A stretch of DNA of 64,000 nucleotides from Gallionella sp. (lineage in GTDB: Bacteria; Pseudomonadota; Gammaproteobacteria; Burkholderiales; Gallionellaceae), in the NCBI GenBank assembly GCA_030682375.1, contig JAUXOL010000013.1:62001-126000 (forward strand), given 5' to 3'. Shown in pieces: positions 4,024 to 63,772 of the stretch (its first letter is position 1; every line of letters starts with the position of its first letter). A program made the translations under genes and the position numbers. The notes under the pieces are model-generated. The model had not been told where the DNA came from. It did no database searches and saw only the letters and a list, made by a program, of their open reading frames with translations.

Positions 4024-4076
4024 GGGTAGCCTTGCATAGCCACCTGACTAGGCTGCCAAAAAACGCCAGCCAAGTC
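4024..4076 (-). repeat. Dispersed hairpin element, family 1, copy 1
   Basis: Read on the minus strand this gives ACTTGGCTGGCGTTTTTTGG, then CAGCCTAGTC and GTGGCTATGC. It aligns with the copies at 37791-37837 (intergenic) and 61116-61163 (inside the FGGY kinase gene). The central stem is GGCTG / CAGCC. Confidence 0.6.
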
Positions 4077-37724: not shown

Positions 37725-37858
37725 GGTAGGTCGGGTTAGGCGCGTGTCGCGCCGTAACCCGACATCTCATCGTCGGGTTACGCTGCGCTAACCAGCGACT
37801 TGGCTGACGTTGTTTGTCAGCTTAGTCGATTGGCTATGCATGGCTAACCCGACCTACG
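37725..37858. repeat. Nested palindromic repeat cluster between bioF and bioB
   Basis: The outer arms GGTAGGTCGGGTTAG / CTAACCCGACCTAC delimit the cluster. Inside are GTCGGGTTAGGCGCG (37730-37744) with its complement at 37748-37763, another GTCGGGTTACG at ~37773, and a family-1 element. The whole 149-bp gap is repeat DNA. It could attenuate transcription between bioB and bioF. Confidence 0.75.
37791..37837 (+). repeat. Dispersed hairpin element, family 1, copy 2
   Basis: ACCAGCGACTTGGCTGACG, TTGTTTGTCAGCTTAG, TCGATTGGCT. The central stem GCTGAC / GTCAGC is perfect. It aligns with copies at 4024-4076 (minus) and 61116-61163. Confidence 0.7.
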
Positions 37859-46529: not shown

Positions 46530-46562
46530 AAATTACTGACCTGCTTTGCAGGTCAGTAATTT
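46530..46562. repeat. Hairpin 1 of a three-hairpin series
   Basis: The 15-bp perfect stem AAATTACTGACCTGC / GCAGGTCAGTAATTT has a TTT loop. Confidence 0.9.
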
Positions 46563-46574
46563 TGACTGGCGTCG

Positions 46575-46607
46575 AAACTATTGATCCGCTTTGCGCATCA
46601 ATAGTTT
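46575..46607. repeat. Hairpin 2 of a three-hairpin series
   Basis: The 11-bp stem AAACTATTGAT / ATCAATAGTTT is continued by a short inner GC / GC pair around a TTT loop. Confidence 0.85.
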
Positions 46608-46647
46608 TAGTTCCGGCATAACATGCTGGGCATGTGAGCCTTCACTG

Positions 46648-46682
46648 AAATTACTAAAACGGCTTTGCCGTTTTAGTAATTT
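46648..46682. repeat. Hairpin 3, overlapping the mshQ stop codon
   Basis: The 16-bp perfect stem AAATTACTAAAACGGC / GCCGTTTTAGTAATTT has a TTT loop. The last codons of mshQ (Asn-Tyr-stop) lie in its outer arm. It may act as terminator or mRNA stabiliser. Confidence 0.9.
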
Positions 46683-49600
46683 TCCCGCAGGTAGATGAAT
46701 TCGTTGTTGCCCTTGTAGACACCGAAAGTCGCGCGCCCACCAGTCAGCGGCAGATAAGTCGGCACGGTGGGAACTATCATCGCACTACCAGCTCCGCCGG
46801 TAGGTCTCGACAAACTGATGTTCAGGATACCGTTCGTAACCGTTGCCGCCCCAGTCGGCGTCGGCGTGGTCGTTCCGGTGATTGCGCCCGACTTGTTCAG
46901 CAAATCGTAAGTCGCCGCCAGCGTCAAGCTGGTCAAGCTGTCCATCGCGCTGGTCACCCAAAATGTACCGTTGAAATACTGCACCGTCGCGGTCAACGGC
47001 AACTTCAACAACTCCGAGCCATGTGCGTTGGACAGCTTGATGCGTCCGCTCGCCACCTTGACCCCGCCCTCGAGCGAATCGGCAGGTACGAGCCTGAGCG
47101 AAAAAACATCCTCAACGTCATAAGCGCGTACATACGCATCGGTCGGCGCGGTCAGCGCAGAGCTTAAGGTATAAGTCGGTGCGACGGTCGCGACACCCGC
47201 GACAAAAGTCAGCGGATCATACGTCAACGAAAACTCATTCCCCCCCGGATTCTGCATCGTTTCGCTGCCCCTGCCATCCCATGCTTCGAGCGTGACCGTT
47301 TTGGCATAGCCGTTTGCCGTCGCGTAATTTGCGGTGACGCCACCCAACGCATTCAAAGCAGTAACCCTCACACTGAATGGCTGGCCGGAATAAACAAAAC
47401 CATCTACCACGTCATTCGAGGCCGGGCACGTCAAACCATTCGGACATGGCATAGGCACACCCGCCGACAGCACCACGGAGGTATTGAAATGGTCGGGAAT
47501 GAAACGCCCTATCAGCGCAGTCCGGGCATTCGCGGAACCGGCGAAAATCGCCACGCGATCAGTCAGATTCACTCCCGTCGAATTAAGATAATTCGTGGCT
47601 GCCGTTGCCGTCAACGTGAACGTGCCTGCTTCGCTGTAATTCAGGGTGCTCCACGTCGTCGCGGCCGCGCTACCGCCCCCCGGCACCGCAACCGCGCCGT
47701 TGCTGAGCAACCCCGCAGCCGGACTGAACGGTGCAGCCGCAAGCAGCAGCACCGTGTCGGCATAGTGCGCTGCGATTCCCGAACCGGTAAGCTGCTCGTA
47801 CGTGGCATCGATCTCCGGCAAACCGTTGCCATCTAAATCGCCGGAGCTATTCCACAGATAACCGCCGACATTCGTCTGAAAATTAGCGCCCGCGTTGGCA
47901 AAGATCGCGCCGTCTGAGGTATCGTCGGCCGGATTGGCGGATGCACCCTGCATGACATCAGAAACAATCACCGCAAACGGCCGCGCCGTCAGGATTGCGG
48001 AGGTGCCGGTCACCGGGGCAGCGGGAACCGTGGCATCGTCGCGCAGGCTCAGCGAATACTTGCCGACATCGCTGGTGACCAGGCAAAAACTAGCCACGCC
48101 AGCCGAGAAAGTCAGATTGAGGTTGTTGCTGGTTGCCGACGCCACCGGAGCCGCGATCGACAGCGTCTGACAAGCACCGTAGTTAGGCAAACACGCCCCC
48201 GAAACAGGCAGGCAAATTTTCGGTGCGGCGGCACCAATCGGATGCTCCGCTCCCAGCGCGGTCGGCGTGTACCAGCCATCCATAGGCTTGACGCCGATAA
48301 AGGTCGTATCGGTCCCGCCGCCACACACGGATGCGTTGCGCTTGACACTCATCAGATGAGGACGCCCCGCGATCACACCCGCGCCCAACGCATCGGCCGC
48401 TGGAGTATCGACCACGAATGAGGCGACGCCGCTGCTGAATTGCACCGGCGTGCCCGAGGAAGAATTGATCGTCCCCAGATATTCGCTGACGTTGATATAC
48501 ACGCCCTCCTGAACCGCATCGGACAGAACGAAATTCGCCGTGCCATTGTCAGCCGCAGCAAAGGTATAACGCTTGTTGACGCTATCCCAAATTCCATTAT
48601 TGCTTGCCGCCGAGGTCAGGGTGGCACTGGATGCCGCGCCCCCCTGCAGGGTGGCCGTAATGACCACCGTCTTGGCGTAAGTCGTGCTCACCTGGCCATT
48701 GGTATTGAGCGCACTGATGGTCACCGTCGGCCGGGGATCGGAGGCGCAAGTGGTGGGCGTCAGGTTGTCGGCCACGATCCGGAAGCCCGCTGGCGGCACA
48801 TAGGTCTGGGCGCAGATCTTGAGGCCGCTGATCTCGTGGATGTTCGTCGAGGCGCCGCTCGATCCCGTAAAAGAAAGCTGCCAGTTCGTCGGCACCTCTG
48901 CCTGCAGCGGATTGACCGCATAGGCATCAAACGACGGGATCAGCGGCGTATAGCTGGCACCGGTACCAGAGCTGTCGCGCTCGATCGAGACCAGCGTGGT
49001 CTTGGTACCGGCACTCCCATTCCAGGAGTAATTGCGAGCATCCACCGTCAAGCGATAAGCATGGCCGAGGCCAGCTGTGGCCGGCGACGGCGCATCGATA
49101 GGGGGTGTCAATGTGGCCGTGCCGCCGAGATAGGGATAGCCGATCACTCCCGACCCCGACCCGCGCGCCGACACCGAATCAGCTGTCAGACCGGGAGCCG
49201 CGCCGCCGACACGGCCCTCGGTGTTGGCCGAAAAGTTGCCATATTCGTCAACGCCGATACCTATCCAGCCACCGGTGAAGCCATTGATGCCTGTCTTTTG
49301 CGCGTAGCCGAGCGAACCGCCATATGCGCCCGACACCGCCGCGATCGCAGCATCCGACAAAATGAAAGTGATGCCGTCTCCCCCGGTACCGCCGTAGGCG
49401 TAATGCTTGAACTCGACGGAAATCCAGTTGCCTTTGGCGGGGAAAGTCCCCGGGCTGGTAGCGGACGTCGATACATTATTGGCGATAGAGGTCAAACGCA
49501 ATTTGTTGGCAACGATTTGCGGCAAAAAGGCAGTCAGCCCGCTCGTGCTCACATTCCAGTTTCCGCTGTAAATCGTCGAAGGGTTAAGGCTGGCACGATT

Positions 49601-52600
49601 GAAGTTATCGCAGACGCAAGTCACGCCGGCAGGACTGCCGGCCGGCACCGAGCACGCGAATGCCGTCTCGCCTGCCACAAAACTGGTGGTGGCCGCAATC
49701 GGCCCCGATACATTGGAAACTCCCGTAGAAGTGGCGCCGGGCGTCACCGGCGTTGGCCGCGTCCAGGTACCGGCGACATATTTGCCGATGGCAAAATTGC
49801 CGGGAGTGGCAAGTGCATCGACTTCACCCGCGACAAAACCGAATGTCACGCCATAACTGCCGACATCCACCGTGTCGCCGCTCGCCCACAGCGACCAGTA
49901 ACGATTCACATCCAGCGCAGAATCGATGCCAGAATTGGAGATCAAGGGATGCTCGTTGCCTGTCGTACTGCCGGTAAGCGTCCCGCCGCCCAGCAGCGTC
50001 GTGACCAGGTTGATAGCTATCGGCGAATAATTACCGTTGCTGCCTACTGGGTAAGTGCAGGTGGTCGTACCCGATGGGAAGGTCAGACGCAGATTGCCGT
50101 CCACAAAGCCGCTGGTACGAACGACACTGGCCGGGCAATTGGCAGCGGCCGTCAGAATATTGGCTCCCGTCGCGACCGTGCCGCTGGTCAATGCCAGCAC
50201 GCCGCTGGCGGTGACCGCGCCATTGAGCGTAAAGCCGCTGGCGTTATTGAGCGTGAGGTTCTGGAAAGTCGCCGTACCGGTAAAGCTCTGCGCCGCCGTC
50301 CCATTGAACGTCCAGGTGCCGCTACCCGAGGTAAAGGTACCCGCATTGCTGAAGTCGCCGGCAATGGCTGCCGCTCCGCTGCCGCCCGAATAAGTACCGC
50401 CGGCGTTGACCGAGATATTGCCCGCTACGGTAAGCGTATTCGCCGCGTTGTTGAGGATGCCATCGATACTCAGATCGCTGATGGCCGGCGTGTTGATATT
50501 CTGGGTCACCGTGTGCCCAACATCTACGGTAACGAAGTCTCCGGAGAGCGGAATGCCGCCGCGACAAGACGTCCAGGTTGCCGCCGCACTCCAGTTGCCG
50601 CTGGCCACGCTGGTGCAATTCACCGCGCTTGCCAGTGTCTCGGTCACAGTGAGAAATGCGCTGGTCGCGGAACAATAGACCCTAGCATTATTGGTTGCCC
50701 CGGGTTGGTTGAAGTCGTATTGCAGCATCAACCGATGGCCGGCCGGCACGGTATAGGCTGCGCTGGCGATGGTGTAGGGATAGGCGGTGGTTGTGCCGGC
50801 GCCAGTCAGCGTGATGACGGCGCTCGAACCGATCAGTGTCTTGCCCCCGGCCACCGGGTCATAGTCATACAGACTGACAGTCACTTTATCCGTGGCCGCA
50901 TTGCCGCGCAAAAATGCGCTACCGGTAGGATTCGCAGCTATATTGGTGTTCGCTGCGTAATTGGCGTTGAGATACCACCTCGAGTGTGTGTACAACCCAA
51001 CAGGGTGGTTGGCCGACCTAGCATTGCCGGTGCAGGTGTTCGCCGTAATCAACGATGCGGTGATGATAGGTGGAATAGTTTGATTGGTGCCCGAGGTAAC
51101 ATTGGTCGTGCCGTCGAATCCGATAGGCACACCCAGGGTGGTGTCGTGGTAATAGGTCTTGGGCAGCGCAGGTCTGACCGAATAAACCTGGCCGGTAAAC
51201 GGCATGGTGGTGATTATCGCCGGACTGATCCCGGTGACGTTGGCCATATTCAATCCCAGCGTGCCGGTACCGCTGCCGGTACTGGCCGTCACGGTCCAGG
51301 CAGTGCCGCTGCCGGTGACGCCGGTGATCGCCGGCGCGCCACCCAACCCGGTATTGACCAGCGTAAAGTTGCTGCTGCTCACCCCGGTGACGCTGGTATT
51401 GAACGTAACAGTCCATGACACCGTGGCCGACGTAGTCGGATTGATGCTGGCATAGTTAACCGAAACAACCGTAGGGCTGGAACAGCTATGCTTCACCGTC
51501 GCCCCGCCATTGGATGTCAACGTATAGTCTGTCGGGCAAGTGGAAGTCAAAGTAACCGTCCCAACTATCGCGCTGGTCACCGTCACATTACGCGCCAAGG
51601 TAATCCCCCCGGTGTTGCTCACGGTCAGGTTCGCGAAGCCCAAAACTCCTGCGCCGGAAATCGTCTGTACCGCCGCACCGCCATTGAGCGTGACCACGCC
51701 CGTGCCGGCAGTGAACGTACCGTTCTGCTGAAAGTTTCCCGCCACATTAAGCGCGTTAGCGCCATTGCCGAACGTATTGGTCGCACCGATGCTGAAATTG
51801 CCGCTCACAGTAAGCGCCGCAGCCGCAGTAGCAGTCGCGGTACCGCTCATGGTGAGGTTACCCCCAATCGTGGTCACTCCGGTAAGTGTCTTGGCACCGC
51901 TCCCGGCCAAGCCAAGGTTGGAATAAGGCGTGGCCTTTACCGTCTGCGCCGCACCGGTGTAGTTAACAGTGTTTCCGACTGCGGTCGCGGTCAGCGCAGT
52001 GATGGCCGACGTGCCGCCCAGAGTCAACGTGCTGCCGGTGCTGTTGGTGAGATTTCCCGTTCCAGCCAAGGCGGTGCTGACGGTCAGATTGCAGTTATTG
52101 GTCAGCACCGTCGGCGCGGTGACGGTGAGACGTGGGATAGTCAATGCTGTCGCACAGTTAAGGGACTGGGCTGCCGTGGTGCTAAAGGTATACACCCCCG
52201 TACCCGCGGTAAAAGTCGCGCCGTTGTGCGAAAGTCCGCCTCTTAAGGCGACAGCAGCCGTAGCATTGGACCAAATCCCGCCAGGATTGATGGTCACCAA
52301 TCCAGTGAACGTTTTCGCGCCGGTAGCCGAGGTAATGTTCAGCGTGCCGCCCACGTTCGTTGCGCCGGTCACTGTCAGCGCAAAGGCGCCGACAGTGTGC
52401 GTGCCGCTGTTCACATTGAGCGCTCCGCCTATCGTGGTTGTACCCAGCAAGGAGACTGCGGTTCCGGCCGTCTTGTTGATGGTGACGTTATTGTAGGTAG
52501 TGAAAGCCCCCATGGTTTGGCCGGCGCCACCGGCAAAGACCACCGTGCCGGTGCCGGCCACCATCGCCGTGGGAATAAAGCTCCCGCTAACGGTAACGGT

Positions 52601-53188
52601 GCTGCCCCCCGGAGTGAAGGCGCCGGGAGCGAAATTCCCCCCGACGGTAATATTGCTGGCCCCTGTGGCAACGAACCGCGATTGGGCAGCAGTTCCGCCC
52701 GACGTCACCGCGCCGGTCACATTGACTGTTCCGGTAGCTCCCACGGTCACTTGGCTGAATCGGCTAGCGCTGTTGCCGCCACTGATGGCGATGCTGCCGG
52801 CATTGAGCGTACCCGTGCCGACGGCAATGGTAGAGCTGCGATTAGTACCAGTGGATGCCGCCATCGTGATGGCGCCACTTACACTCAAAGTCACGCCGGG
52901 ATTGATATTGACGCCATGCGTCGCAACGGATGGCGCTGCGACAATAATGCCGGTCGCGGCAGCGTTGGCGGTAACGGTGACGGTATGAGCGGCAGCGATG
53001 GTGACGGTGTCGGCGGCAACCGGGCCACCCGCCACATTGCAAGGCGCAGCCCATGTCGTGGCAGCGTTCCAATTGCCGGTTGCCACAGAGGTACAAGCCG
53101 CAGCATTCGCCTTGGTCGCCCCCAGCAGCGCAGCCAAAAACGACAGCAGCAGCAATGACCATCTGCCACACTTGCCAAACGCGCCCAT
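46673..53188 (-). CDS. mshQ: Giant MshQ-like adhesin with lectin-like domain (2171 aa)
   Basis: The signal peptide runs from MGAFGKCGRW to about ANA at residue ~30. Residues ~35-560 are Gly/Thr/Ala-rich beta repeats of the type NVAGNFQQNGTFTAGTGVVT, probably a beta-helix. An Ig-like domain (TSATVSWTVTFN, ~575-660) and a segment starting near YYHDTTLG (~690) follow. At ~860 the opening CTSVASGNWSAAATW repeats the N-terminal CTSVATGNWNAATTW and starts a second beta-repeat block. Residues ~1190-1460 look like an L-type lectin (DNFNRASLN, GDGITFILSDAA, GGWIGIGVDEYGNF). The rest, ~1465-2171, is the DUF6701-type MshQ C-terminus (GRFIPDHFN, ending GGRATFGVYKGNNEFIYL). It is probably surface-exposed and pilus-linked. 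ATG 53188 is preferred for its GGGGAG site; ATG 53203 is possible. Confidence 0.85.
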   Translation of the reverse strand: MGAFGKCGRWSLLLLSFLAALLGATKANAAACTSVATGNWNAATTWAAPCNVAGGPVAADTVTIAAAHTVTVTANAAATGIIVAAPSVATHGVNINPGVTLSVSGAITMAASTGTNRSSTIAVGTGTLNAGSIAISGGNSASRFSQVTVGATGTVNVTGAVTSGGTAAQSRFVATGASNITVGGNFAPGAFTPGGSTVTVSGSFIPTAMVAGTGTVVFAGGAGQTMGAFTTYNNVTINKTAGTAVSLLGTTTIGGALNVNSGTHTVGAFALTVTGATNVGGTLNITSATGAKTFTGLVTINPGGIWSNATAAVALRGGLSHNGATFTAGTGVYTFSTTAAQSLNCATALTIPRLTVTAPTVLTNNCNLTVSTALAGTGNLTNSTGSTLTLGGTSAITALTATAVGNTVNYTGAAQTVKATPYSNLGLAGSGAKTLTGVTTIGGNLTMSGTATATAAAALTVSGNFSIGATNTFGNGANALNVAGNFQQNGTFTAGTGVVTLNGGAAVQTISGAGVLGFANLTVSNTGGITLARNVTVTSAIVGTVTLTSTCPTDYTLTSNGGATVKHSCSSPTVVSVNYASINPTTSATVSWTVTFNTSVTGVSSSNFTLVNTGLGGAPAITGVTGSGTAWTVTASTGSGTGTLGLNMANVTGISPAIITTMPFTGQVYSVRPALPKTYYHDTTLGVPIGFDGTTNVTSGTNQTIPPIITASLITANTCTGNARSANHPVGLYTHSRWYLNANYAANTNIAANPTGSAFLRGNAATDKVTVSLYDYDPVAGGKTLIGSSAVITLTGAGTTTAYPYTIASAAYTVPAGHRLMLQYDFNQPGATNNARVYCSATSAFLTVTETLASAVNCTSVASGNWSAAATWTSCRGGIPLSGDFVTVDVGHTVTQNINTPAISDLSIDGILNNAANTLTVAGNISVNAGGTYSGGSGAAAIAGDFSNAGTFTSGSGTWTFNGTAAQSFTGTATFQNLTLNNASGFTLNGAVTASGVLALTSGTVATGANILTAAANCPASVVRTSGFVDGNLRLTFPSGTTTCTYPVGSNGNYSPIAINLVTTLLGGGTLTGSTTGNEHPLISNSGIDSALDVNRYWSLWASGDTVDVGSYGVTFGFVAGEVDALATPGNFAIGKYVAGTWTRPTPVTPGATSTGVSNVSGPIAATTSFVAGETAFACSVPAGSPAGVTCVCDNFNRASLNPSTIYSGNWNVSTSGLTAFLPQIVANKLRLTSIANNVSTSATSPGTFPAKGNWISVEFKHYAYGGTGGDGITFILSDAAIAAVSGAYGGSLGYAQKTGINGFTGGWIGIGVDEYGNFSANTEGRVGGAAPGLTADSVSARGSGSGVIGYPYLGGTATLTPPIDAPSPATAGLGHAYRLTVDARNYSWNGSAGTKTTLVSIERDSSGTGASYTPLIPSFDAYAVNPLQAEVPTNWQLSFTGSSGASTNIHEISGLKICAQTYVPPAGFRIVADNLTPTTCASDPRPTVTISALNTNGQVSTTYAKTVVITATLQGGAASSATLTSAASNNGIWDSVNKRYTFAAADNGTANFVLSDAVQEGVYINVSEYLGTINSSSGTPVQFSSGVASFVVDTPAADALGAGVIAGRPHLMSVKRNASVCGGGTDTTFIGVKPMDGWYTPTALGAEHPIGAAAPKICLPVSGACLPNYGACQTLSIAAPVASATSNNLNLTFSAGVASFCLVTSDVGKYSLSLRDDATVPAAPVTGTSAILTARPFAVIVSDVMQGASANPADDTSDGAIFANAGANFQTNVGGYLWNSSGDLDGNGLPEIDATYEQLTGSGIAAHYADTVLLLAAAPFSPAAGLLSNGAVAVPGGGSAAATTWSTLNYSEAGTFTLTATAATNYLNSTGVNLTDRVAIFAGSANARTALIGRFIPDHFNTSVVLSAGVPMPCPNGLTCPASNDVVDGFVYSGQPFSVRVTALNALGGVTANYATANGYAKTVTLEAWDGRGSETMQNPGGNEFSLTYDPLTFVAGVATVAPTYTLSSALTAPTDAYVRAYDVEDVFSLRLVPADSLEGGVKVASGRIKLSNAHGSELLKLPLTATVQYFNGTFWVTSAMDSLTSLTLAATYDLLNKSGAITGTTTPTPTGAATVTNGILNISLSRPTGGAGSAMIVPTVPTYLPLTGGRATFGVYKGNNEFIYLRENY

Positions 53189-53222
53189 AGTCACTCCCCT
53201 CATCGCTGCCGATCCTCCCTGG

Positions 53223-60746: not shown

Positions 60747-62186
60747 TCATCGACTCAATAAGCCGTCCAGCCACACTTTCCAGCGCGCATATTTTTCGAC
60801 CAGCTCCGAAGCGGGGCGCATTATATCGACTTTCTCCGCACATCGTCCGTCTGCCGACGGCATTCCCGCGGCAAGTCGTGCCGCGCCTACCAGACCGGCA
60901 TCGGACTGCGTCAGACGGTAGACCGTCGCGAACGGCGCACAGCAGGCGATCCCCTGCTGCAGGCAGGCCAGATTGGACAGGCCGCCGGAGAGGTAGACGC
61001 GTTCGACGCCGAATTCCCGATGCATGTCTTCCAGCATGCGGGCCACCCGGAAGCTGATCCCTTCCAGCAGCAAGGCTGCGATGCGTTGCGGCGGGAGGCC
61101 ATCGACCGGCGCGTAACCAGCTACTTGGCTGCCGTTGTTTCGGAGCTTAGTAGATTGGCTGGTCGTTTCATCAAAGAACATCACTCCCAAGTCCTTGCGG
61201 AAGTACGGCGCACCCAGTCCGCTCGGCTCCGCGAGACAAAAGATATCGTCGATTGCCAGATCCTCCGCACAGCAATCGACCGCCGGATACGCTGCCAGCG
61301 CCGAGGCGATGGAATTCAGCGTCCCCTCGCAGGCGAAATCAGTATGTCCGTTGCCGGTCTGCCAAAGCAGCGTCTGCAGATAACCATCGGTCGCATCCCG
61401 ACCGTCCGGCAGCGGACAGATCACAAAACCGCCCGTCCCGAGATTCACCAAGGCTTCCCGCTGGCCGGGCACGAGACTCGCAGCCAGCGCCGCCGACTGG
61501 TCCGCGATACTCGCACGCAGCGTCAATCCATTATTCAGCGGCAGCGCCCATCCAGAAGACGCGCGTATCTCCGGCAGCGCCTCATGCGGCATGCCGAAGA
61601 GTTCGCAGAGCCGCGACGACCATTTTCTGTCATGCACATCCATCAACAACGTGCGCGCCGCCATCGATGCATCGGTCAGGTATGCGCCGCTCCAGCGCCA
61701 GACCAGAAAGGTATCCAGCGTCCCCGACAACCAGTCGCCGCAAGCCAGGCGCTCGCGCCACGACGGATGCTCCTGCAGCAGCATATGCAACTTCGGCGCG
61801 AGGTAATAAGGCGTGATCGGCAGCCCCGCGAGCGAGCGTATCTCGGCCTCCTTGCCTCGTAGCGCCTCGCAAGCGGCAGCGCCTCTATCGTCCTGCCACG
61901 AGATCAACGGGGTAACCGGCTGCCCGGTCTCGCGCTCCCATATCAAGAACGACGAGCGCTGGCAGCACAGGCCTAGCGGCGGACGCTCGTCCGTCTGCGC
62001 CATGCATTCGGCCAGCACCGCCTCGGCGGCCTCCGCGTAAGCCAACGCGTCGCTCTCGTATCGCCCGCCGTCAGCAGCCACCGCGGGCGCAGGCCGAACG
62101 ACGATGCCGTGCAGTACTCTCCCCGAAGACAGCAGACCTGCCTTGATCGAGGTCGAGCCGAGATCGAGCGCGATGGCCGCCGTCAT
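60747..62186 (-). CDS. FGGY-family carbohydrate kinase, probable glycerol kinase, with a 48-bp in-frame repeat
   Basis: The 479-residue protein begins IALDLGSTSIKAGLL (phosphate-1 loop). It has ISWQDDRG, FLVWRWSGAYLTDAS, NLGTGGF and YLSGGLSNLACLQ (ATP-binding C-terminal domain). It differs from canonical GlpK. Its ATG 62186 overlaps glpD by 4 nt, and GDPD precedes glpD, which makes glycerol the likely substrate. Between GVMFFDE and the helix LPPQRIAALLLEGISF about 16 residues (TSQSTKLRNNGSQVAG) come from a palindromic repeat (61116-61163). The insert is in frame and in a probable surface loop. Confidence 0.82.
   Translation of the reverse strand: MTAAIALDLGSTSIKAGLLSSGRVLHGIVVRPAPAVAADGGRYESDALAYAEAAEAVLAECMAQTDERPPLGLCCQRSSFLIWERETGQPVTPLISWQDDRGAAACEALRGKEAEIRSLAGLPITPYYLAPKLHMLLQEHPSWRERLACGDWLSGTLDTFLVWRWSGAYLTDASMAARTLLMDVHDRKWSSRLCELFGMPHEALPEIRASSGWALPLNNGLTLRASIADQSAALAASLVPGQREALVNLGTGGFVICPLPDGRDATDGYLQTLLWQTGNGHTDFACEGTLNSIASALAAYPAVDCCAEDLAIDDIFCLAEPSGLGAPYFRKDLGVMFFDETTSQSTKLRNNGSQVAGYAPVDGLPPQRIAALLLEGISFRVARMLEDMHREFGVERVYLSGGLSNLACLQQGIACCAPFATVYRLTQSDAGLVGAARLAAGMPSADGRCAEKVDIMRPASELVEKYARWKVWLDGLLSR
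61116..61163 (+). repeat. Dispersed hairpin element, family 1, copy 3, inside the kinase gene
   Basis: The 48-bp unit opens ACCAGCTAC and closes with GGCTGGT. The centre GGCTGCCG-TTGTTT-CGGAGCT folds as in the other copies. It matches 37791-37837 at about three of four bases or better. It keeps the reading frame (16 codons). Confidence 0.8.
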
Positions 62187-63772
62187 CAAATCCGTTCGCC
62201 CTGAGCCAGGGCTAAGGGCCGACATGCATCTATCTCCTGCGCGACCCGGGTCTCGTGCCATCCCAGCACCGGCGCGACCAGCTCGGCCAAGCGACGCAAA
62301 TCATTCTCGTCGAGCCGCGCAAGGATCTGCAGCGGCATCCGGCGACGCAACAGATCGGACAGATGCATCGGCATCTCCTCGCCGGCGCAGAACAGCAGAT
62401 CGGCCAGGATGAACGGCAGGTCGGGGACGATGCGCTGCGCCAATTCCGGCCTCTGTTCGATTAGCGCAAACACCTGCTCGCAGCGCACACCATGACGGCG
62501 CAACAGCCACTGTGCGCTGTCGGCGTCGATACATAGGCGCAGCGCACGCGCAACGCCCTGCTCCATCCAGCCCAGAAAATCCTGCTGAGGCTTCCACGGT
62601 AGATCGCACTCGCCACTGGTACAAGGCCGGGCGACACCAAGCGCCGCGCACACCGCATCGACGATGCTGCACGCATCCTCGCGCGCCGAGGTGAGCTTGC
62701 CGCCGATGGAGCAATGCAGGCCGCTATCCAGCGTCTTCAGCTCCCAGTCCCGGCTGAGCGCCGAAGGCGACATGTCTTCGTCCTGTTTCATCACGCGCAG
62801 CCCGGCGTAACTGCCGATCACATCCTGCCTGCGCCACGCCGTCTTAAGATACCGGTTCGCTGCCTCCAGCAAATAGTCCACATCGCCATCCTCGACGACC
62901 GCATGGCCGGGCTTGCCGAGATAATCGGTGTCGGTCGTGCCGAGCAGCGTGCGGCCATACCACGGGATCACGAAAAACACGCGCCCATCCGACTTCGCCG
63001 TCAGCAGGATCGCCTCGTTCGCAGCCAACCCCGGCATCACCAGATGCACTCCTTTGGTCAACCGGCACCATGCGCGTCCGACATCGTCTGAGGCGAGCCA
63101 CTGTCCGGCGGCGCTGACGCATTGCCGGGCGCGCAACCACACCGCAGCACCGTTCACCTCGTCCTGCACGGTCGCACCGCACACCCGCCCGCCCTCTTCG
63201 TTCCAGTCGATGAGGCGCGCATAGTTCACACACACCGCGCCATGCGCGACCGCACCAGCGACCAGCTCCAGCACCAGACGCGCATCGTCGGTCTGCGCAT
63301 CGCCATAGGTGTAGCCGCCTCTCAAGGTCTCATCGTCGAGATAAGGAAAGTGTTCGGCGAAATGCGCGCAATCGAAGCGGCGATGCCGCATCTGTTCGTC
63401 CGGAAAACCAGCCAACATGTCGTACAGCATCAACCCGGCCTTCAGCTTCAACAATCCGTTGCGACTGTCCTCGTACACCGGCACACCGAAGCGCAACGGC
63501 CACACCCGATGCGGCGCGATGCGCAGCAGACGCTGCCGTTCCGCGAGCGCCTTCTTCACCAGCTTGAAATCGTAAGTCTCCAGATAGCGCAATCCGCCGT
63601 GGATCAGCTTGCTCGATGCGGAAGAAGTCGCCCCCGCCCAGTCGCCCTGCTCCACCAGCGCGACCTTCAGACCTCTCAGCGCCGCGTCGTACGCCGTCCA
63701 CGCACCGTAGATGCCGCCGCCACAAACCAGCAGATCAAAGTCGTCCTGCAATGCCGCAAAATCGCGCTTCAT
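62186..63772 (-). CDS. glpD: Aerobic glycerol-3-phosphate dehydrogenase
   Basis: This 528-residue FAD enzyme of the inner membrane oxidises glycerol-3-phosphate to DHAP and feeds quinone. FAD site LLVCGGGIYGAWTAYDA, then GATSSASSKLIHGGLRYLE, FFVIPWYGRTLLGTTDTDY and SIGGKLTSAR are typical. It overlaps the GDPD gene and the kinase gene by 4 nt each, so all three are coupled. Confidence 0.95.
   Translation of the reverse strand: MKRDFAALQDDFDLLVCGGGIYGAWTAYDAALRGLKVALVEQGDWAGATSSASSKLIHGGLRYLETYDFKLVKKALAERQRLLRIAPHRVWPLRFGVPVYEDSRNGLLKLKAGLMLYDMLAGFPDEQMRHRRFDCAHFAEHFPYLDDETLRGGYTYGDAQTDDARLVLELVAGAVAHGAVCVNYARLIDWNEEGGRVCGATVQDEVNGAAVWLRARQCVSAAGQWLASDDVGRAWCRLTKGVHLVMPGLAANEAILLTAKSDGRVFFVIPWYGRTLLGTTDTDYLGKPGHAVVEDGDVDYLLEAANRYLKTAWRRQDVIGSYAGLRVMKQDEDMSPSALSRDWELKTLDSGLHCSIGGKLTSAREDACSIVDAVCAALGVARPCTSGECDLPWKPQQDFLGWMEQGVARALRLCIDADSAQWLLRRHGVRCEQVFALIEQRPELAQRIVPDLPFILADLLFCAGEEMPMHLSDLLRRRMPLQILARLDENDLRRLAELVAPVLGWHETRVAQEIDACRPLALAQGERI

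Follow-up and report, generated by a model that had tools for sequence, protein, structure and literature searches.

A 54-60-bp palindromic element dispersed through Gallionellaceae genomes and present in frame within unrelated genes

The 64,000 bp of Gallionella sp. DNA analysed here (the window) encode an FGGY-family kinase whose reading frame runs through a palindrome, and a first-pass annotation had pointed out two similar palindromes lying between genes of the same stretch. We asked what this palindrome is, how it came to lie in frame within an enzyme and whether coding genes are its target. Palindromic elements that lie in frame within genes are known chiefly from Rickettsia, where the Rickettsia palindromic elements (RPE) were reportedly described by Ogata et al. 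in 2000.

The window copies and their repeat family

As annotated, three copies are found in the window. They share the core ACTTGGCTGNCGTTNTTT with no mismatches, at 4058-4075 (minus strand), 37798-37815 (plus strand) and 61123-61140 (plus strand), and all three are better folded than shuffled sequences (z -4.5, -5.5 and -3.1). The motif TTAGTNGATTGGCT alone is not significant in the window, where it has two matches, a number equalled by 11 of 100 shuffles; the family membership of the window copies therefore relies on a family model. This covariance model, R1, was built from 13 aligned copies that include the three listed here:

61113..61172, minus strand: 60-bp element in the FGGY kinase gene (DETTSQSTKLRNNGSQVAGY); R1 match G000:C13:123111-123175, minus, 72.6 bits, E=4.2e-14
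61116..61163, minus strand: palindromic core of the kinase element; fold of -20.2 kcal/mol on the plus strand, z -3.05
60747..62261, minus strand: ORF of an FGGY-family (glycerol-kinase-like) kinase; NCBIfam TIGR01311, E=4e-52, under the curated cut-off
37788..37845, minus strand: sister copy with a TGCAT-GCC 5' end and a 58-bp core; R1 match G000:C13:99786-99848, minus, 69.3 bits
4028..4085, plus strand: sister copy of the TGCAT-GCC subtype with a 58-bp core; R1 match G000:C13:66025-66087, plus, 63.4 bits
37726..37857, no strand assigned: host REP (GTAGGTCGGGTTAG...TAACCCGACCTAC) around the 38-kb copy, with the 19-bp piece GGGTTACGCTGCGCTAACC

The kinase insert had been given as 48 bp and 16 residues. 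It is indeed in frame, but its size was underestimated: aligned relatives have a 20-residue gap at this place in their proteins, and eight relatives have a 60-bp gap in their DNA, which sets the element at 61113-61172. The earlier 48-bp call is its palindromic core. The longest reading of the kinase ORF is 504 aa, with homologues listed at 430-513 aa, and the true start may lie further in.

The two sisters belong to the same family as the kinase copy, but they form a separate subtype with another 5' end and a 58-bp core inside a GGGTTA-type REP. Both lie in gaps between ORFs, the 38-kb copy within a GGGTTAGCGCAGCGTAACCC REP and the 4-kb copy within a GATGGGTT...CAACCC REP. The piece GGGTTACGCTGCGCTAACC of the former recurs without mismatch at 13 further sites in the genome. 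Several GGGTTACGCTGCGCTAACC repeats also lie within about 0.5 kb of a weak Y1_Tnp protein of 178 aa (L038:1363-1899; G000 C15, ~48.5 kb), which is probably the RAYT of this REP. Elsewhere in the window, at 46530-46682, three short hairpins stand in a row (AAATTACT.../...AGTAATTT and similar), at and past the 3' end of a 2,176-aa ORF (46673-53203).

The annotation had recognised a dispersed repeat, but the genome (2.78 Mb, 22 contigs) holds 32 copies rather than three. A literal pattern search of the genome, with a pattern that was too strict, found only two copies, and the kinase copy, used as a DNA query, retrieved no sister at E<0.1; with the 38-kb copy as the query, further copies were retrieved. 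The genome scan with a covariance model that had been proposed as a check gave 32 significant copies at E<=6.7e-5 (the 13 model copies included), and the next match had E=5.2.

R1 also matches 132 of the 149 other Gallionellaceae genomes at E<=0.001 (133/150 with our own genome). Relatives contain from 0 to at least 38 copies per genome, the high counts being lower bounds because about 35 candidates were scored per genome. The named kinase relatives are mostly Gallionella, Sideroxydans and kin, and the bacterial family that carries the repeat is probably iron-oxidising. Outside this family, R1 matched one of 184 other genomes of the class, in a run of reduced sensitivity (28 of the 32 own copies listed) that also served as a control for false matches. 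This lone copy (L348 in G289, from another family of the class; E=9.3e-15) lies in a CCCTCCCC-rich stretch and possibly reflects horizontal transfer. In collections of phages and plasmids, R1 had no match at E<=0.01. Three IMG/VR contigs contain the core pattern, and the two that hold a full copy (L350:402-460 and L351:5594-5658) may represent a vehicle between hosts. The literature searched contained no paper on this repeat family or on the peptides of the element and its host repeats. The repeat family is abundant and apparently recent, and found in free-living bacteria.

A conserved hairpin with exact borders and a CT target

On the kinase coding strand, the main type of the element consists of approximately GATGAAACTACTAGCCATTCGACTARG, a variable stem-loop and then CMAAGTCGCTGGTTAT, which together make an imperfect palindrome. 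Our census comprised 174 rows, or 172 distinct copies after removal of two duplicates: 31 of the 32 copies of the own genome, 108 of 112 from six closed genomes, and 33 that were the best-scoring loci of 29 further genomes. Loci L278-L287 were omitted, as were C4:22140 of the own genome and the second member of a touching pair in G050. Among the 174 rows, 83 are 60 bp and 42 are 54 bp long, and 132 have a length divisible by three. Shorter-ended copies of 58-59 bp, including the 4- and 38-kb ones, have another 5' end and lie within REPs or another long repeat.

The central stem was said to differ in bases while staying paired, and the census bears this out. We followed 18 pairs, picked by eye from one copy, through 81 of the 83 60-bp rows, after removal of a duplicate and of a row that was out of register. 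The proposed pairs form in 94.0% of cells, compared with a shuffle mean of 87.3% (maximum 88.5%) and 5-41% for slid partners. Both sides are changed in 94 cells, compared with a shuffle mean of 22.8 (maximum 34). The 21 further pair types represent no excess over shuffles (mean 19.5, maximum 24), and the covariation term in the first 13-copy alignment was nearly nil (-0.06). The middle arm reads CGACT/AGTCG in 62 of the 81 copies, CCACT/AGTGG in eight, TGACT/AGTCA in five and CTACT/AGTAG in one, the kinase copy. By our own reading, both sides of the kinase stem change fall at third codon positions and are silent (TCG to TCT, GTC to GTA). The hairpin may be kept because a moving enzyme recognises folded single-stranded DNA.

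Covariation, together with the location of the majority of copies outside genes, would also be expected of a functional RNA or regulatory element that spreads through usefulness and not selfishness. We consider this quite improbable. Rfam gave seven matches at E<=1 in seven loci, none of which reached the gathering score, copy number ranges widely among relatives, and the copies are nested in a manner that resembles transposition.

Evidence for movement came from the insertion sites. When the element was removed exactly, the joined flanks were found elsewhere for 70 of the 128 main-type rows (68/126 without two duplicate rows), a match being 24 bases in the fetched DNA with the eight central bases exact and at most three mismatches. 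Removal that was one base short or one base long gave a single row each, and removal two to four bases off gave none. CT precedes the element in 110 of the 128 rows and T in 121, compared with a background of 5.4% CT among flank dinucleotides. The empty sites allow a target duplication of at most one T, which is ambiguous because the element, too, usually ends in T.

Many of the 60 printed empty sites resemble other palindromic repeats, such as CTTCGACAGGCT/CAGGGCGAACGG and CCCCAACCCTCT/CCCGCTTGCGGG (the slash marks the junction), and one is the element itself (L250, AGCCATTCGACT/AAGC). Similarly, L276 contains a copy within a copy, at an inner ACT, in which the inner copy is broken by other repeats. 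Nesting of this kind, within its own copies and within other repeats, has the appearance of transposition. The nested copy is broken by a stretch of about 200 bp (L276:1274-1479) with the ends TTGATCCGGCAC and GTGCCGGATCAA.

Copies inside genes

We then considered the proposal that an active process seeds coding genes. In-frame entry, precise empty sites and self-nested copies agree with an active process, but a targeting of genes is not supported. Only 17 of the 172 copies lie in genes (3/31 in the own genome, 11/108 in the six closed genomes and 3/33 in the others), as judged from the codon usage of both flanks and an open frame through the copy. ORFs of at least 250 codons cover 48,966 of the 64,000 window bases, yet 90% of copies are outside genes by this test; the element avoids genes and does not seek them. 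A stricter version of the test retained eight candidates (seven after removal of a duplicate row), which agreed in strand and frame throughout. A copy near the N-terminus of GlnD (L059), perhaps located before the true start, was excluded from the count.

All 17 in-gene ORFs match known families. According to our reading of the domain matches, the hosts are MutS, MutL, NifN (twice, in the own genome and in G057), the FGGY kinase, PurL, CysS, MiaA, PrmC, a UvrD-like helicase, a restriction-type DEAD helicase, an MFS transporter, a radical-SAM protein, an S4-domain protein, a SpecificRecomb-family protein, a CbiA-like amidotransferase and a thioredoxin-like protein. Translation of such a copy, for example that in nifN of the closed genome G057 (L267), would give a peptide that spans DGTTSHSTKPASGQVAGY. 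Mismatch-repair genes are both hit, in separate genomes (mutL in G050, L259; mutS in the own genome, L042).

All 17 in-gene copies have lengths that are a multiple of three (54 or 60 bp, which add 18 or 20 residues); divisibility by three is a property of both main length classes, intergenic copies included. Fifteen of the 17 are in one strand and frame, mostly read as D-x-TTSHST...QVAGY. The exceptions are the MutL copy, in antisense frame 0, and the CbiA-like copy, in antisense frame 1. Most copies can be read through in any of three frames (135, 131 and 124 of 174 rows). Were the copies independent, the one-frame bias would have P ~2e-6 for 15/17, or 5e-6 for 14/16 with NifN counted once; they are not fully independent, because NifN contributes two copies and some 12 of the 17 are, as judged by eye, nested in other repeats. 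The mutS and nifN genes look intact, since the alignment to solved relatives is broken only once in each, where the insert and its surrounding repeat lie (query 411-487 versus 387-400 in MutS, 170-201 versus 160-161 in NifN).

Other host repeats also occur in frame in genes, with peptides like PNPLPQAGEGANA, VRPELVEG and SPSPQPS-GRGS, in L042 (mutS), L046 (nifN), L166, L169, L186, L207 and L251. The present element is often nested there, and these repeats look like further in-gene repeat families. A tentative but real possibility is that the in-gene copies are by-products of host repeats (PNPLPQAGEGA, VRPELVEG, SPSPQPS-GRG) that entered genes first and later served as targets. The roughly 12 of 17 copies found inside such repeats speak for this order of events, which is compatible with a mobile hairpin element. 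The kinase copy, on the other hand, breaks plain coding sequence, and host repeats alone leave unexplained why 15 of 17 copies agree in strand and frame when their host repeats and sites differ.

The kinase locus was examined in relatives both as protein and as DNA, in two sets that may share organisms. Of 110 loci read as DNA, 108 have the anchor motif, one being the window itself; the site is empty in all of the remaining 107. None of these 107 loci carries the peptide, so the case of kinase relatives with the peptide and without the DNA repeat, which would have counted against a mobile element, was not encountered among them. In a motif search of the 119 protein relatives listed (120 with the window's own kinase) of 1,313 found, four metagenomic kinases (P0006, P0007, P0009 and P0059) have the peptide at the same place, as seen in the protein only, and P0111 has a related peptide elsewhere in the kinase, inside a further insert. 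In P0059 a second copy lies in frame within the first.

A quick tree computed from 79 of the 120 proteins, with the insert excluded, places the five carriers at scattered positions, which implies at least five changes. P0006 and P0031 are close sisters on this tree, although they differ in the insert. The distribution may reflect repeated insertion at one CT, recombination-borne spread or precise loss; the shared ending NNGSQVAGY rather favours a common ancestry of the insert, followed by transfer or loss. A different insert, like RHGGAEPSGAGAGALHFLPQTADFVGNVSEV, is found in P0093, P0095, P0108 and P0111 at kinase residues ~70-120, before RPPLGLC; in P0111, the relative of the present element lies inside it. 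A kinase structure modelled from 18 sequences reached a best mean pLDDT of 71.4 (49-58 for the other four models) and places the insert (residues 364-383) within a coil of low confidence (345-386) that precedes a long helix, which counts as weak evidence.

The four metagenomic kinases with the peptide at the same place could mean that it is an ordinary lineage-specific loop, resembling the repeat by chance, and that the gene copies are not mobile DNA. This reading is largely contradicted and seems hardly credible to us: the kinase copy fits the family model over its full length, relatives lack exactly 60 bp or 20 aa, and the same peptide is found in mutS, nifN, purL, cysS and others.

Candidate mobilisers and known systems

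We consider it very probable that the repeat is a 54-60-bp non-autonomous hairpin mobile element that works like RPE or in-gene REPs, with selection keeping the harmless in-frame landings. What the computation shows is a family that has multiplied within the Gallionellaceae, with exact borders, a covarying hairpin and copies in frame, and that inserts precisely after CT, often into other palindromic repeats and with no duplication past one ambiguous T. Landings in genes in one strand and frame would be tolerated as a loop, because the main length classes are divisible by three and one sense frame encodes a hydrophilic peptide; other landings would be purged by selection.

How does such an element compare with known mobile DNA? 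Classical MITEs possess terminal inverted repeats and a fixed-length target-site duplication. The present element is instead an imperfect palindrome with at most one ambiguous T at its empty sites, and it has the precise filled and empty sites of a mobile element in general (70/128 rows). Non-autonomous elements derived from IS200/IS605 make no target duplication, insert 3' of a short fixed sequence and have hairpin ends. Our element shares these traits, but it is one single hairpin of 54-60 bp. Matches to its left end in five genomes lay in full-length copies in 65 of 66 cases, and the 66th was the interrupted nested copy in L276; thus, these genomes revealed no longer element that shares this left end.

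RPE are described as palindromes of ~150 bp that lie in frame in unrelated metabolic genes of Rickettsia, where the added peptide is seemingly tolerated (PMC10969869). Like RPE, our element is a dispersed palindrome found in frame in many unrelated genes (17/172 copies, all divisible by three). Unlike RPE, it is 54-60 bp long, occurs in free-living Gallionellaceae, lies mainly outside genes and inserts exactly after CT. It appears to work like RPE, a likeness that concerns the kind of element. A second comparison is with GTAG/CGTC REPs, many-copy short palindromes of a number of species, some of which are located in genes, including several for DNA synthesis or repair (Di Nocera et al. 2013, PMC3733652). 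The words Gallionella, Nitrosomonas and Sideroxydans are absent from the main text of that paper. Our element similarly hits repair genes (mutS, mutL and the UvrD-like helicase), but its element strand lacks a GTAG 5' of the hairpin, and we found no association with Y1.

The latter differences bear on what moves the element. It could be a REP-type repeat that is moved in trans by a resident TnpA-REP Y1 or an IS200/IS605-like nuclease acting on folded single strands, which we regard as possible but doubtful. TnpA-REP is described to cleave at CT 5' or 3' of a bulged REP (PMC8266576), and the bulged hairpin and CT junction of our element, without clear target duplication, resemble this, but no cognate Y1 gene is linked to it. 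The Y1 family PF01797, which was tested as a whole and not by subtype, has three matches in the own genome and at least one in 16 of 18 copy-rich genomes. It is equally present in 14 of 15 copy-free genomes tested (of 17), and it is absent from the closed genome G040, which has 32 copies, and from G027 (85% complete). R1 has no match within 1.5 kb of any of the three Y1 genes in the own genome. In copy-rich genomes, 3 of 30 Y1 loci have a nearby copy, which we estimate to be about what copy density predicts (~1 or more in 94 kb). Moreover, neither GTAG nor GTRG is found 5' of the hairpin on the element strand, which has CTAC or similar where REPs have GTAG; the GTAG of the element is located only on the opposite strand, 3' of the hairpin. 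A Y1/RAYT mobiliser, as suggested by the first-pass annotation, is therefore not supported, although a lost, diverged or unusual Y1 is possible.

We found no enzyme that mobilises the element. Recombination of the IS110 type at a CT core was set aside, as the right junction reads AT rather than CT. Two further candidates, integron attC sites and group II introns, were provisionally dropped.

A bolder proposal, which we think unlikely, is that the 60-nt single hairpin is a complete and recently active mobile unit of a new type, which inserts after CT with no target duplication, whose enzyme is neither Y1/RAYT nor encoded on a longer relative, and whose coding-neutral design has been shaped by repeated passage through genes. 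The coding-neutral traits are a length divisible by three, one stop-free hydrophilic sense frame and a stem in which changes can affect third codon positions. If true, a single hairpin would naturally supply free-living bacteria with protein loops in their essential enzymes.

A second family of in-frame palindromes makes selfish DNA that passes through proteins a testable idea. The target rule and borders are exact, and relatives hold filled and empty alleles of the same enzyme. Some members of the Gallionellaceae are in culture, and the function of host genes such as mutS, nifN, cysS and purL can be assayed.
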